Below, piece after piece: positions 8,867 through 11,781 of a stretch of DNA of 25,281 nucleotides (position 1 is the stretch's first letter; the number at the start of each line of letters is the position of its first letter). Made by a program: the position numbers and the translations under genes. Origin of the DNA: a virus. Location: positions 1 to 25,281 of the IMG/VR virus record IMGVR_UViG_3300008113_001569, one strand, 5' to 3'. The notes beneath the pieces were generated by a model. The model searched no databases. It saw only the letters and a program-made list of their open reading frames with translations, and had not been told where the DNA came from.

Positions 8867-8882
8867 TTGATTAATTTTTTTA

Positions 8883-8913
8883 CAAATATAATACTTTATT
8901 TTGATTAAACAAT
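8883..8913 (-). promoter_or_regulatory. Promoter of the recombination operon
   Basis: Minus-strand TATATTTG at 8890-8883, with ATTG at 8913-8910 exactly 19 bases upstream, the Bacteroidota promoter layout. The predicted start is around 8876-8879, giving a leader of only about 10-13 bases before the 45-aa gene. Confidence 0.65.
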
Positions 8914-8921
8914 ACTTTTAT

Positions 8922-9101
8922 TCAAAAAGGACAATTATTTTTTTCTTTAGGTATTAAATCTTTGTACTCTCTTTTGATTTTCTCAGCTATGGCTTCTCTA
9001 ATGAAATGCCCAACATCGACATTATAAGACTTCATTTTTTGGAGTGTTAAAAGTTGCGATTCAGTAACTCTGATTACTTTTGTTTTTGTTAGTATTTTCA
9101 T
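8922..9101 (-). CDS. Ribbon-helix-helix-like DNA-binding protein, 59 aa
   Basis: ATG at 9101 to TGA at 8924-8922. The sequence TKTKVIRVTESQLLTLQKMK, then YNVDVGHFIREAIAEKIKRE fits a strand followed by two helices of the ribbon-helix-helix fold (Arc/CopG type), ending in NCPF. Short proteins of this kind are common in Bacteroidota phages and plasmids and are probably transcription regulators. Its start is close to the outer end of the cassette-like array. Confidence 0.7.
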   Translation of the reverse strand: MKILTKTKVIRVTESQLLTLQKMKSYNVDVGHFIREAIAEKIKREYKDLIPKEKNNCPF

Positions 9102-9114
9102 AATATTGTAATAC

Positions 9115-9144
9115 GTTAGTTGCTGTTAGCGGGTAGTTATAACT
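9115..9144. repeat. Outer boundary of the cassette-like array, three phased GTTA sites
   Basis: On the plus strand G-TTA occurs at 9115 (GTTAGTTGC), 9125 (GTTAGCGGG) and 9136 (GTTATAACT), spaced 10 and 11 bp. On the minus strand AGTTATAAC (9144-9136) is the exact reverse complement of the first 9 bases of the last unit (GTTATAACT, 9462-9454). No second arm of a long palindrome is visible, so this looks like a truncated or different recombination site. Confidence 0.45.
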
Positions 9145-9209
9145 CAGCTTTGTTAAAGTCTGATAAATGGTCTGAAACAACTGAATCAATAACATCTGAA
9201 TAAGTAAAA

Positions 9210-9431
9210 TCAAACCATAACATAAAAAATAAGTTTCCAATAAATATTCATCCATTTTAATTTTAACTTAATTTCTATTCCTGATTTTACTCTTTTCATT
9301 TTTACCAAAACATCGCCATAACGACTATCTTTAGGGTTTAAATGAGCTTCTTTATCTCTTTCGTAATATCTTAAACATTCATAACCACTAATTGAATAAG
9401 CAGTCATTTCTTTATTCATAATTTGATACAT
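9210..9431 (-). CDS. Hypothetical protein of cassette unit 4, 73 aa
   Basis: Begins MYQIMNKEMTAYSISGYECL; the ATGs at 9419 and 9407 are also possible starts. The middle (RYYERDKEAHLNPKDSRYGD) is charged; the last 20 residues are hydrophobic and aromatic (WMNIYWKLIFYVMV), perhaps a membrane-associated or out-of-frame end. It is the only good frame in its unit, starting about 23 bases after the unit boundary. No family recognised. Confidence 0.45.
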   Translation of the reverse strand: MYQIMNKEMTAYSISGYECLRYYERDKEAHLNPKDSRYGDVLVKMKRVKSGIEIKLKLKWMNIYWKLIFYVMV

Positions 9432-9454
9432 AAATTTGTATGAATTAAGCCGAA

Positions 9455-9596
9455 GTTATAACAAGTGTTTTGCGATGATTTTCGGCTTTAGGTTAATATT
9501 AATGTTTGTTTTGTACTTGTAATCTTTTGTATTAATCTGAAAGGCTTGCGTTTCTCGTTCCGAAAAACCTCGCAAAGCACTCAACCGTTAGTAGCT
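9455..9596 (-). repeat. attC-like recombination site between units 3 and 4
   Basis: Outer ends on the minus strand are AGCTACTAAC (9596-9587) and GTTATAAC (9462-9455). Inside, 9464-9485 and 9560-9581 form an imperfect stem: AGTGTTTTGCGA against TCGCAAAGCACT pairs at 11 of 12 positions and the next 10 at 8 of 10. The loop is about 74 bases and AT-rich. It overlaps the stop codon of the preceding gene. Arms, ends and loop resemble the site at 10785-10921. Confidence 0.6.
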
Positions 9597-9762
9597 ATTT
9601 AAACATCGTTTTGTGTATAACGACATCATTTATCCGAATTGGGAATTTAAGGCGTGCTAAAGTGTGATATTTCAGGTTTTCACATTCACAACATTTTTTT
9701 AAGTTGCCGTAAGTTTCTATTCGTTCGCCTTGAATAAATACTATTATTGATTGTCTTTGCAT
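9595..9762 (-). CDS. Hypothetical protein of cassette unit 3, 55 aa
   Basis: ATG at 9762 to TAG at 9597-9595. It begins MQRQSIIVFIQGERIETYGN, continues LKKCCECENLKYHTLARLKF and ends IHKTMFK. CCEC could bind metal, but there is only one cluster. It overlaps the preceding gene by 19 bases and its stop codon lies inside the recombination-site end, as is typical for cassette genes. Confidence 0.6.
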   Translation of the reverse strand: MQRQSIIVFIQGERIETYGNLKKCCECENLKYHTLARLKFPIRINDVVIHKTMFK

Positions 9763-9896
9763 AATTCTAAATCTAAAGCGTAAATTCCTGTTCTAAAATC
9801 TCTTTTCCATACAATATCGTATTTGAATAAATTATAAGAGTAATCTATAACTATTCCTTTTTTACGACATCTTAATTTTATTTTTTTAGCTTCCAT
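9744..9896 (-). CDS. Hypothetical protein of cassette unit 3, 50 aa
   Basis: ATG at 9896 to TAA at 9746-9744. A basic, beta-rich protein: MEAKKIKLRCRKKGIVIDYS, then YNLFKYDIVWKRDFRTGIYA and an acidic end. Overlaps its upstream neighbour by 11 bases and its downstream neighbour by 19, so it is translated as part of a four-gene operon. No family recognised. Confidence 0.6.
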   Translation of the reverse strand: MEAKKIKLRCRKKGIVIDYSYNLFKYDIVWKRDFRTGIYALDLELCKDNQ

Positions 9897-10056
9897 ATTT
9901 GTTTTCGATTTCTATTTCATCAATAGCTAGTCTTATTTTTTCTAAATCTTCAAGTATTGGTTTTAAGTTTTCTAAAAGGCACTCTTTAGAATTTTCCAAG
10001 TGCCTTTTTCTTCTGTTTAATACTTCAAGTTTTTTCTTTTGTTTTTCGTTTAACAT
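9886..10056 (-). CDS. Coiled-coil protein of cassette unit 3, 56 aa
   Basis: ATG at 10056 to TAA at 9888-9886. The product is almost entirely helical and charged (MLNEKQKKKLEVLNRRKRHL, then LENLKPILEDLEKIRLAIDE). It overlaps its upstream neighbour by 7 bases. No family recognised. Confidence 0.6.
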   Translation of the reverse strand: MLNEKQKKKLEVLNRRKRHLENSKECLLENLKPILEDLEKIRLAIDEIEIENKYGS

Positions 10057-10238
10057 AATTTTAAGGCGTTTTCAATTACTATTGTAGATTGTTCTTGAGT
10101 TAAGTTAAATTTTTCAACTAACATATTTGAAAGAGCAAAAACATATTTTGTTTCTCCAAAACCTTGAGATACCATTTGTGCTAATACTTCTTTTGCAGTT
10201 AATAAAGCGTTTGCGATGTTTAATTCTTGAGTTGTCAT
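10050..10238 (-). CDS. Hypothetical protein of cassette unit 3, 62 aa
   Basis: A helical protein beginning MTTQELNIANALLTAKEVLA and ending EQSTIVIENALKLC. First gene of the four-gene operon behind the promoter at 10269. A frame in another register (10114-10302) covers the same DNA, but this one has better protein-like composition and coupling to the next gene. No family recognised. Confidence 0.65.
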   Translation of the reverse strand: MTTQELNIANALLTAKEVLAQMVSQGFGETKYVFALSNMLVEKFNLTQEQSTIVIENALKLC

Positions 10239-10268
10239 TTTGTTTTGTTTTAGTTGTTATTTCTTTTA

Positions 10269-10299
10269 CAAATATACGACTAATTTTGTAAATACCAAA
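10269..10299 (-). promoter_or_regulatory. Promoter inside cassette unit 3
   Basis: On the minus strand TTTG (10299-10296), exactly 19 bases, then TATATTTG (10276-10269): the best match to the Bacteroidota consensus in the window. It lies within a cassette-like unit, 31 bases before the 62-aa start codon. Confidence 0.75.
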
Positions 10300-10342
10300 C
10301 AAAATTACAAATATTTTAAAAATTTATGTAAAATAAATAAAC

Positions 10343-10425
10343 AGCTACTAACAATCAATAAACAATAGTGGCGGAATCTACTAAACCGCATACGCCACCA
10401 TCGTTTATTTTTAACGTTAGCAAAC
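10343..10425 (-). repeat. attC-like recombination site between units 2 and 3
   Basis: Outer ends on the minus strand: TTTGCTAAC (10424-10416) and GTTAGTAGCT (10352-10343). The stem pairs ATAAACAATAGTGGCG (10358-10373) with 10393-10408 at 14 of 16 positions, plus GCGG (10371-10374) with CCGC (10386-10389). The shortest and best-paired of the sites, about 80 bases. Confidence 0.65.
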
Positions 10426-10435
10426 ATTGTTACTA

Positions 10436-10756
10436 TTAGTTTTCAGAATGGAATTTTTTGTAAAATTTAGCTTCTATGTCCCGTTTTAAAAAACGCTCAC
10501 CATCTTTTTCTAACCAACTACCAAAGCCAGCTACATATCCATTTTTCTCTAAATATTCTTCATAGCTTATTTTTTGTTTGTAGTCTCTTTTATATTTAAT
10601 CATACTTTTCAATTCTTCTTTTACATCTTTTCCTTTCTCGATGTCATTTAAAAGAATTTGTAAACTATTAATTAAAGAAATATAATTTTCTTCTTTATCT
10701 TTTATTTCTTTAAATAATTTTTCTTCTCTTGATAATGGGTAAGGTTGTCTATTCAT
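10436..10756 (-). CDS. Hypothetical protein of cassette unit 2, 106 aa
   Basis: I choose the ATG at 10756 (MNRQPYPLSREEKLFKEIKD); the frame extends to 10795, but the extra 13 residues would be encoded by the unit boundary itself. The protein is charged and helical, with a C-terminal KISYEEYLEKNGYVAGFGSW and then KDGERFLKRDIEAKFYKKF. No family recognised. It stops 11 bases before the recombination-site end. Confidence 0.6.
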   Translation of the reverse strand: MNRQPYPLSREEKLFKEIKDKEENYISLINSLQILLNDIEKGKDVKEELKSMIKYKRDYKQKISYEEYLEKNGYVAGFGSWLEKDGERFLKRDIEAKFYKKFHSEN

Positions 10757-10784
10757 CACGTTTTGTTTTAAATACCCACAACGA

Positions 10785-10921
10785 TTTGCTAACAAGTGTT
10801 TGGCAAAAAAGCGGGTTCGGTTATTAATTTAAAGTTTGTTTTTTCTTTGTTAATTCTGTGCTTAATCGAAAGCTATTGCATTTTTAACCGCTTCTTCGCC
10901 AAGCCCGAAACCGTTATAAGC
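10785..10921 (-). repeat. attC-like recombination site between units 1 and 2
   Basis: Outer ends on the minus strand: GCTTATAAC (10921-10913) and GTTAGCAAA (10793-10785). Imperfect arms: GTTTGGCAAAAAAGCGG (10798-10814) against CCGCTTCTTCGCC plus AAGC (about 10889-10905). The AT-rich loop contains the stretch AAAACAAAC.TTAA..TTAA.AACC (minus strand) also found in the loop of the site at 9455-9596. Confidence 0.55.
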
Positions 10922-10932
10922 AAAAAAATTTA

Positions 10933-11130
10933 CTACCATTTCTCCGCGATATTATACGGTAAGTTTATAACCCACTCCATCGGTGCAAAAAATATATCTT
11001 GGTCTTCTTTGCCTGTAAATATGTATTTCGCTACTGCATAAATCGCAATTATTGGTATGCAAAATATCGCAGGGAATAATAATGGAAAGCAAAGAAGCCA
11101 TATAATAATTTTTAATATTCGTTTTATCAT
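10933..11130 (-). CDS. Small membrane protein of cassette unit 1, 65 aa
   Basis: Begins MIKRILKIIIWLLCFPLLFP followed by AIFCIPIIAIYAVAKYIFTG: two hydrophobic segments (about residues 4-24 and 24-40) and a C-terminal soluble tail with acidic and aromatic residues (KEDQDIFFAPMEWVINLPYN). Positive residues at the N-terminus. The only gene of its unit, starting 25 bases after the unit boundary. Function unknown. Confidence 0.65.
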   Translation of the reverse strand: MIKRILKIIIWLLCFPLLFPAIFCIPIIAIYAVAKYIFTGKEDQDIFFAPMEWVINLPYNIAEKW

Positions 11131-11146
11131 AACCGTAAATTTTTCA

Positions 11147-11169
11147 GTTTATAACACAGGGTTGTAAGC
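11147..11169 (-). repeat. Proximal boundary site of the cassette-like array
   Basis: On the minus strand TTACAAC, CCTGT, GTTATAA (11167-11149): two inverted 7-mers pairing at 6 of 7 around a 5-base spacer. The G-TTATAA end starts unit 1. It is far shorter than the other sites and could be the attachment site at the head of the array or a remnant of one. Confidence 0.4.
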
Positions 11170-11229
11170 AATAAAAAGTGCCATTTAGGTTTTTAATATT
11201 ACATCATTTTCTCAATTATAGATTCTATT

Positions 11230-11451
11230 CTACCTTTCATTCCGTGACCTGTAACCTTGAGTACGGTTATCCCAATGCGGAGTAAACTCATCTTTAAAAG
11301 TTTCTCTATTCATAGGACTATCACTATCGTGTAATCCTGTTTTGTAATCGTCGTAGTTGTTCATTGTATCTGTGTTTATAGTTTTATAAATTTTTCCGTT
11401 TTTAACGTATTCTTTTGGTAGCAAGTGGATATTAATAGGTGTTCCGAACAT
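11230..11451 (-). CDS. Hypothetical protein, 73 aa
   Basis: A polar protein starting MFGTPINIHLLPKEYVKNGK, rich in N, D and T in the middle and ending in an arginine-rich tail (HWDNRTQGYRSRNER). It follows the 67-aa gene after a short hairpin and precedes the cassette-like array. No family recognised. Confidence 0.55.
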   Translation of the reverse strand: MFGTPINIHLLPKEYVKNGKIYKTINTDTMNNYDDYKTGLHDSDSPMNRETFKDEFTPHWDNRTQGYRSRNER

Positions 11452-11467
11452 CTTATTTGTGTTTTAA

Positions 11468-11488
11468 AGGGAGGTTTTTACGCTCCCT
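11468..11488. other. Small hairpin between the 67-aa and 73-aa genes
   Basis: AGGGAG (11468-11473) pairs with CTCCCT (11483-11488). T residues follow on the plus strand (11491-11497), but on the transcribed minus strand only TTT follows, so read-through into the 73-aa gene is likely. Confidence 0.4.
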
Positions 11489-11495
11489 GATTTTT

Positions 11496-11699
11496 TTATT
11501 TTAATATTGATTTTAACGTTCTGTAAACTCTTCCTTTTTCATTTATAAAAGCTAATGCGCTACCATTTGTAATATCCGCTTCGAATTCTAATCCATTAAA
11601 CATAAAAAATATTTCTTTGTTAAATTCGTTATATCTATTTTCAATTGTAAAAGATATATTTGCTTTAGTTAATGCGGAGGTTATTCTTTTAGTTATCAT
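11496..11699 (-). CDS. Hypothetical protein, 67 aa
   Basis: Starts at the ATG at 11699 (MITKRITSALTKANISFTIE); a TTG at 11732 in the same frame is part of the promoter and can be excluded. The sequence alternates strands (FFMFNGLEFEADI, ALAFINEKGRVYRTL), a small alpha-beta protein. No family recognised. The predicted leader is about 25 bases. Confidence 0.6.
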   Translation of the reverse strand: MITKRITSALTKANISFTIENRYNEFNKEIFFMFNGLEFEADITNGSALAFINEKGRVYRTLKSILK

Positions 11700-11729
11700 A
11701 ATTCCTGTGTTTTTATCTGTTTTGTTATA

Positions 11730-11737
11730 CAAATATA
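11730..11737 (-). promoter_or_regulatory. TATATTTG promoter element before the 67-aa gene
   Basis: Minus-strand TATATTTG (11737-11730). With its upstream T-rich segment and TTCAAAAGATAG it is close to a copy of the element at 6140 over about 35 bases. Confidence 0.55.
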
Positions 11738-11781
11738 AAACTATCTTTTGAATTAAAAAAACTTTTTTTCAAAATTAACAT

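Follow-up and report, generated by a model that had tools for sequence, protein, structure and literature searches.

The window analysed here is the whole 25,281-nucleotide (nt) stretch of the IMG/VR virus record IMGVR_UViG_3300008113_001569, whose genes include those for a phage portal, an endolysin, and a helicase/primase, and it carries at positions 9136-11155 (+ strand) four tandem units that resemble the gene cassettes of integrons. Each unit opens at G|TT (9136, GTTATAACT; 9587, GTTAGTAGC; 10416, GTTAGCAAA; 10913, GTTATAAGC) and closes with the reverse complement of its own first 8-9 bases (AGTTATAAC, ending at 9462; GCTACTAAC, at 10352; TTTGCTAAC, at 10793; GTTTATAAC, at 11155), with cognate ends matching at 9/9, 9/9, 9/9, and 8/9 positions in units 1-4. 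Four units with cognate inverted ends had been proposed in a sequence-only reading of this DNA, and the proposal is borne out by these matches and by a combined score for hairpins and cognate ends, which was 50.9 for the array and at most 20.9 in 200 dinucleotide-preserving shuffles of the whole window. The departure from the integron R' consensus GTTRRRY that it had pointed out also holds, the unit cores (GTTATAA, GTTAGTA, GTTAGCA, and GTTATAA) having only GTTR in common. The genes of the units are small and lie on the minus strand. Hairpins were scored with a covariance model built from Flavobacterium chromosomal attC sites only (hereafter the host-trained model). The layout is as follows, with lengths of open reading frames (ORFs) in amino acids (aa).

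9099 to 9136, + strand: left edge of the array, candidate attI-like site, CATAATATTGTAATACG|TTAG...GTAG|TTA, assigned by similarity to the edge in relatives only, exact boundary approximate
9136 to 9587, + strand: cassette 1, G|TTATAACT ... AGTTATAAC-attC-G, ends 9/9, attC matched by the model
9210 to 9431, minus strand: ORF of cassette 1, 73 aa, antisense
9459 to 9591, + strand: attC 1, 68.4 bits, E=1e-13 with the host-trained model
9587 to 10416, + strand: cassette 2, G|TTAGTAGC ... GCTACTAAC-attC-G, ends 9/9
10050 to 10238, minus strand: 62-aa ORF, one of several small ORFs of cassette 2
10349 to 10420, + strand: attC 2, short-loop form, 28.0 bits, E=1.7e-5 with filters off; DNA fold z=-4.7 on the minus strand
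10416 to 10913, + strand: cassette 3, G|TTAGCAAA ... TTTGCTAAC-attC-G, ends 9/9
10436 to 10762, minus strand: ORF of cassette 3, about 106-108 aa
10790 to 10917, + strand: attC 3, 84.0 bits, E=3e-17 with the host-trained model
10913 to 11270, + strand: cassette 4, G|TTATAAGC ... GTTTATAAC plus a weak or degenerate attC, ends 8/9
10933 to 11130, minus strand: ORF of cassette 4, 65 aa
11152 to 11270, + strand: attC 4, weak or degenerate, 14.8 bits, E=0.017 with filters off

A covariance check of the kind that the sequence-only reading had called for, run with the host-trained model, recovered window hairpins at E=3e-17 and 1e-13, and in a scan of the 25-kb window nothing besides attC 1 and attC 3 matched at E<=1; the filters-off scan covered 9000-11600. 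Its view that a palindrome closes each unit stands for three attC-like hairpins and falters at the fourth, which we regard as weak or degenerate given its low score even with filters off. A scan of the minus strand had been suggested, but all model matches are on the + strand, which is the recombination frame. DNA folding gave z-scores of -4.7 for the middle hairpin (minus strand), -3.0 for the first (+ strand), and about -0.5 for the third, where the long loop dilutes the signal; Rfam gave no match. A minus-strand frame, first read from the position of extrahelical bases, was ruled out by cassette association, natural insertions, and host gene direction, all of which follow the + frame. Separately, a 53-bp AT-rich direct repeat (81% identical; 8875-8927 and 11722-11774) brackets the cassette region and contains the promoter-like TACAAATATAA.

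Blastn located homologues of unit 2 or unit 3 in the Flavobacterium LMO phages (Lillamyvirus, Muminvirus, and Hattifnattvirus); in Polaribacter phages the homology covers part of unit 2. Window cassette 2 is a homologue of lillamy U10 at about 75% DNA identity, with both ends changed together (GTTAGTAGC/GCTACTAAC vs GTTAACCGC/GCGGTTAAC), and cassette 3 is a homologue of U13, which stands in place of U10 in lillamy9-6; apart from this one swap of a unit-2 for a unit-3 homologue, lillamy9-1 and lillamy9-6 are 99.5-99.6% identical. Whole-cassette differences that end at G|TT within flanks 99.9-100% identical were also found between sniff and snork, mumin6-1 and mumin6-3, and morran and lillamy9-6. 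In this comparison of related phages, which the sequence-only reading had proposed, whole units are swapped, present, or absent with junctions at G|TT, and these insertions and swaps, along with the matches to the host-trained model, support its integron-like cassettes. Of the phage units, 11 were seen in two or more contexts; their left attC differs between contexts in 10 cases and their right attC in 2, so that a cassette consists of a unit and its right-hand attC in the + frame. The relatives carry chains of 9-14 sites with 8-9/9 cognate ends, and the host-trained model found 108 sites in 10 phage sequences, all on the + strand. An attC pattern derived from phages matched 57 stretches in IMG/VR, with chains of at least 3 sites in about 36 of them. 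Cassette arrays are present in very long viral contigs as well (L036, 169,658 bp; L045, 102,859 bp; L057, 99,577 bp), one of them near jumbo-phage size. In mumin6-1 (L014, about 5350), the R'' end of U10 (GCCTATAAC) is non-cognate to its head GTTAACCGC, and in the 99.9% identical mumin6-3 (L015, about 4845) it is cognate (GCGGTTAAC). No plasmid DNA resembling the array was found, nor were IMG/VR protein relatives of cassette 3, and one lillamy cassette protein had no match in the genome collection.

The arrays of the relatives are polarised. Their left edge, CATGTAATATTGTAG|TTA (...TATCATGTAATATTGTAG|TTA), is identical in 15 Lillamy/Mumin/Hattifnatt phages and is followed by 8 different first cassettes, which share little beyond GTTA among themselves at this edge, while the right edge is common to all 15 and the distal cassettes are nearly constant. 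One left edge, 8 first cassettes, and a constant far end therefore amount to the attI polarity expected of an integron, seen directly in these 15 phages and, in the window, by similarity only. Candidate host attI sites (TATATTTATGAG|TTA and CATATAAACTAG|TTA) are found some 100-200 nt past the recombinase stop codon in the chromosomal arrays described below.

Gene direction, counted from the longest ORFs of at least 50 aa, separates phage from host cassettes almost completely: 144 genes are sense and 4 antisense to attC in host chromosomes, vs 3 sense and 133 antisense in phage and viral cassettes. The integron rule of gene, then attC, in one orientation is hence followed in host arrays and broken in phages, although the viral set was gathered by one attC pattern and may miss rarer classes. 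The sequence-only reading had seen a gene followed by its palindrome, but this order belongs to a minus-strand reading; the hairpin that moves with a phage gene lies 5' of it (left attC varying in 10 of the 11 units, right in 2), so that phage genes are antisense to their own attC. Promoters of their own were considered for phage cassettes and rejected, as the Bacteroidetes -7 motif TAnnTTTG occurs upstream of 9/127 genes vs 11 in shuffles. The same motif occurs in 30/126 host attC loops on the + strand and in 1 on the minus strand, where shuffling would give about 6%; such a pattern would fit host attC loops that carry promoters for the next cassette.

The phage cargo comprises a large family of N6/N4 DNA methyltransferases (41 ORFs) and one helix-turn-helix protein, and is otherwise without known function; PHROGs gave no function for four proteins from window cassettes. 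Cargo so rich in DNA methyltransferases is consistent with counter-defence, and may provide fast counter-defence variation. The phage setting without a visible integrase, remarked on from the sequence alone, was upheld in that PF00589 tyrosine recombinases are absent from the window (a record that may be a fragment) and from the 8 Lillamy/Mumin/Hattifnatt phages searched. The related phages 2A and Danklef_1 do encode tyrosine recombinases. In Danklef_1, a Polaribacter phage (MT732458), a tyrosine integrase match with an internal TGA (41006-41455) lies beside the cassette region.

Host and phage sites are built alike. The phage-derived attC pattern matched 7 genome contigs, 6 of them from Flavobacterium or Flavobacteriales, and the host-trained model matched 53 of 61 Flavobacterium genomes; under a stricter threshold, 7 of 60 genomes from the order had matches. 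Across 117 host and 191 phage sites, attC spacers are mostly 1 and 5 nt, a T.G wobble stands at position 6, and an A/C mismatch at position 15 was found in 110/116 host and 167/190 phage sites. In the host-only alignment, 204 compensatory cells were counted vs 58.8 in shuffles (a value reached by 0 of 500 shuffles), and the mismatch column was unpaired in 41/41.

These chromosomal sites are accompanied by a recombinase. A 356-aa tyrosine recombinase of F. amnicola (L106) is directly followed by an array of at least 11 sites, and the array-linked enzymes of Flavobacterium are about 340-355 aa long and related to IntI. Of 150 Flavobacterium genomes sampled, 77 have a member of this family (E<=1e-60), and in many a long array comes after it, with 27 sites in 17.7 kb in L147, 29 in L152, 23 in L150, and 15 in L153; in a few (L146, L148, and L154) the 20 kb read at the recombinase locus showed no array. 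Several draft contigs stop just past the recombinase, as expected where array repeats follow. Genome G077 has single-strand attC matches from 3,078,206 to 3,245,673, and at this locus (G077:C1:3074359-3245673, L147) the matches downstream of the recombinase extend over about 170 kb, rivalling the Vibrio superintegron in size. Right attC sites were kept in duplicated host cassettes by 5:0 with 1 tie. L152 and L150 each hold identical cassettes twice in one chromosomal array, with the same right and different left attC, a sign of recent cassette duplication within the genome. A Chryseobacterium plasmid (NZ_CP041688.1, 8007-13805; L161) has the same type of recombinase, after which come a chain of at least 4 attC-like sites, an IS110 element, and farther on a group II intron; this array may be a mobile form.

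The IntI additional domain is taken as the mark of an integron integrase, and IntegronFinder uses it to find integrons. The host recombinase aligns with TIGR02249 at positions 2-176 and 240-314, below cut-off, the additional domain being missing from the alignment, and among solved structures VchIntIA is nearest to it in sequence (141.5 bits, the match being split in two by the missing domain). Its best NCBIfam match is NF040815, at 214.7 bits just under the cut-off of 220. In a recombinase tree the Flavobacterium enzymes group with IntI and apart from Flavobacterium XerC/XerD; the branches are long and the references few, and we make no claim of a firm sister-group placement. A tyrosine recombinase of the IntI or another clade, which the sequence-only reading had advised seeking in phage and host, was found on the host side, in an IntI-related form without the additional domain, and not in the window.

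We consider it highly probable that the window array is an integrase-less phage integron of a Flavobacterium type, its cassettes moved at G|TT, most likely by the host recombinase in trans. Each cassette would be a + strand unit, G|TT-body-AAC-attC-G, with one or more small genes on the opposite strand, gained and lost by site-specific recombination at G|TT, both at the attI-like edge of the phage and at existing attC sites. The attC would fold into a hairpin as single-stranded DNA and be recombined in that form. The enzyme would most likely be the Flavobacterium integron recombinase encoded beside the long chromosomal arrays of the same attC type, acting on phage DNA in trans during infection. 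Several points weigh against this account. The fourth window attC is weak; phage cassette proteins did not match the sampled host cassettes; and extra hairpin bases are mostly on the R' arm at stem positions 11-14 (in phage sites, 79 bulges on the R' arm and 25 on the R'' arm), the reverse of canonical attC, where extrahelical bases lie on the R''-L'' arm (PMC2727003). In addition, the window is without a near-identical relative of different cassette set, so that its own mobility is inferred from homologous cassettes in related phages.

Ordinary phage mosaicism, i.e., homologous or recombinase-assisted exchange in co-infection with conserved hairpins as short homology, would draw on the co-occurrence of the LMO phages, their gene annotated 'recombination protein', the sequence that attC sites have in common, and the different attC of U10 in mumin phages as compared with U10 elsewhere. 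We consider it unlikely, as junctions fall at G|TT within 99.9-100% identical backgrounds and the first cassettes at the left edge are alike in little more than GTTA, while cognate end matches hundreds of bases apart and the joint change of both ends between window unit 2 and U10 would go unexplained. The same cassettes might instead be moved by another enzyme, either host XerC/XerD or the integrase of a co-resident temperate phage, and XerC/XerD-like genes are indeed present in Flavobacterium, as are tyrosine recombinases in phages 2A and Danklef_1. This appears less probable still, given the enzyme of about 350 aa directly upstream of such arrays in many Flavobacterium genomes (this enzyme being the one whose surroundings were scanned for arrays) and its closeness by sequence to VchIntIA among solved structures.

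That the hairpins are transcription terminators or RNA processing signals, with ends matching by chance in AT-rich DNA, seems very improbable: hairpins are common between small genes and attC may double as weak terminators, yet all 200 shuffles scored below half of the observed value, relatives hold long chains of sites with cognate ends, and whole units are inserted at the same boundary, natural insertions that already contradict this explanation. Non-autonomous transposons with unit-specific terminal inverted repeats, of the IS200/IS605 or miniature inverted-repeat (MITE) type, would account for the short inverted ends of each unit but are likewise very improbable: the ends differ between units, the units stand head to tail with common G|TT junctions and one hairpin class, and in the comparisons made, insertions occurred only at the G|TT of existing attC or attI-like sites.

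Beyond the integrase-less phage integron itself, we lean, with less assurance, towards an undescribed integron lineage common to Flavobacterium and its phages, with a recombinase without the IntI domain and a different attC strand-asymmetry code, in which virulent phages would have an attI of their own and a separate pool of cassettes with inverted genes, and would use the recombinase of the host to reshuffle methyltransferases and other counter-defence genes. If so, a large integron lineage would have been overlooked and the IntI additional domain would be dispensable. Phage gene capture can be tested directly in virulent phages that possess an attI, polarised arrays, and natural differences of a single cassette, and the almost complete inversion of gene direction from host to phage cassettes raises the sharp question of how and why the two pools stay apart.

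Set against known systems, the array works like an integron, and several features of the strict definition fail. Tandem cassettes are parted by structured palindromic attC sites, crossover is at G|TT, and each cassette is a body plus its own attC; an IntI with the additional domain is absent from the phages and this domain from the host recombinase, and the extrahelical bases lie mainly on the R' arm instead of the R''-L'' arm. Integrase-less attC clusters (CALINs) have been reported in virulent phages, one of them Polaribacter phage P12002L, whose cassettes encode DNA methyltransferases, and IntI1 recombined 5 of 6 tested phage attC sites in E. coli (Qi et al. 2023, PMC9892861). With at least 2 attC sites and no integrase in the phage, the window array falls within this class, bearing in mind that its record may be a fragment, and it resembles those clusters in its tandem attC-bounded cassettes, virulent phages, and lack of integrase (PMC9892861). 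Unlike them, as those are short, are found by standard tools, and include no Flavobacterium phage in the main text (PMC9892861), the Flavobacterium phage arrays hold 9-14 sites, an attI-like edge, polarity, natural insertions, and consistently antisense genes. The earlier suggestion of a new or poorly described system does not hold for integrase-less phage clusters as such, which had been reported before, although not from Flavobacterium phages. The paper on the LMO phages does not mention integrons (PMC7077304), and the open-access literature, to which our search was confined without subscription journals and preprints, gave no account of Flavobacterium integrons of this kind. NF040815 (XerA-like / 'site-specific tyrosine recombinase/integron integrase'), the best NCBIfam match, is defined by recombinase sequence alone, arrays being no part of it. 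The Vibrio cholerae superintegron (VchIntIA and the Vibrio cholerae repeats, VCR) is alike in its tyrosine recombinase beside long arrays, structured attC, G|TT crossover, cognate R''/R' ends, and attI-like first site, and comparable in size to the array of G077. Unlike VchIntIA, the Flavobacterium recombinase lacks the additional domain of IntI, and its gene stands upstream of the array and reads in the same direction; unlike VCR, Flavobacterium attC sites have spacers of 1/5 nt and an A/C mismatch that is fixed, and their extra bases fall mainly on the R' arm. What appears to be new is the shortened form of the integrase, the altered attC, the attI of the phages, and the inversion of their genes.

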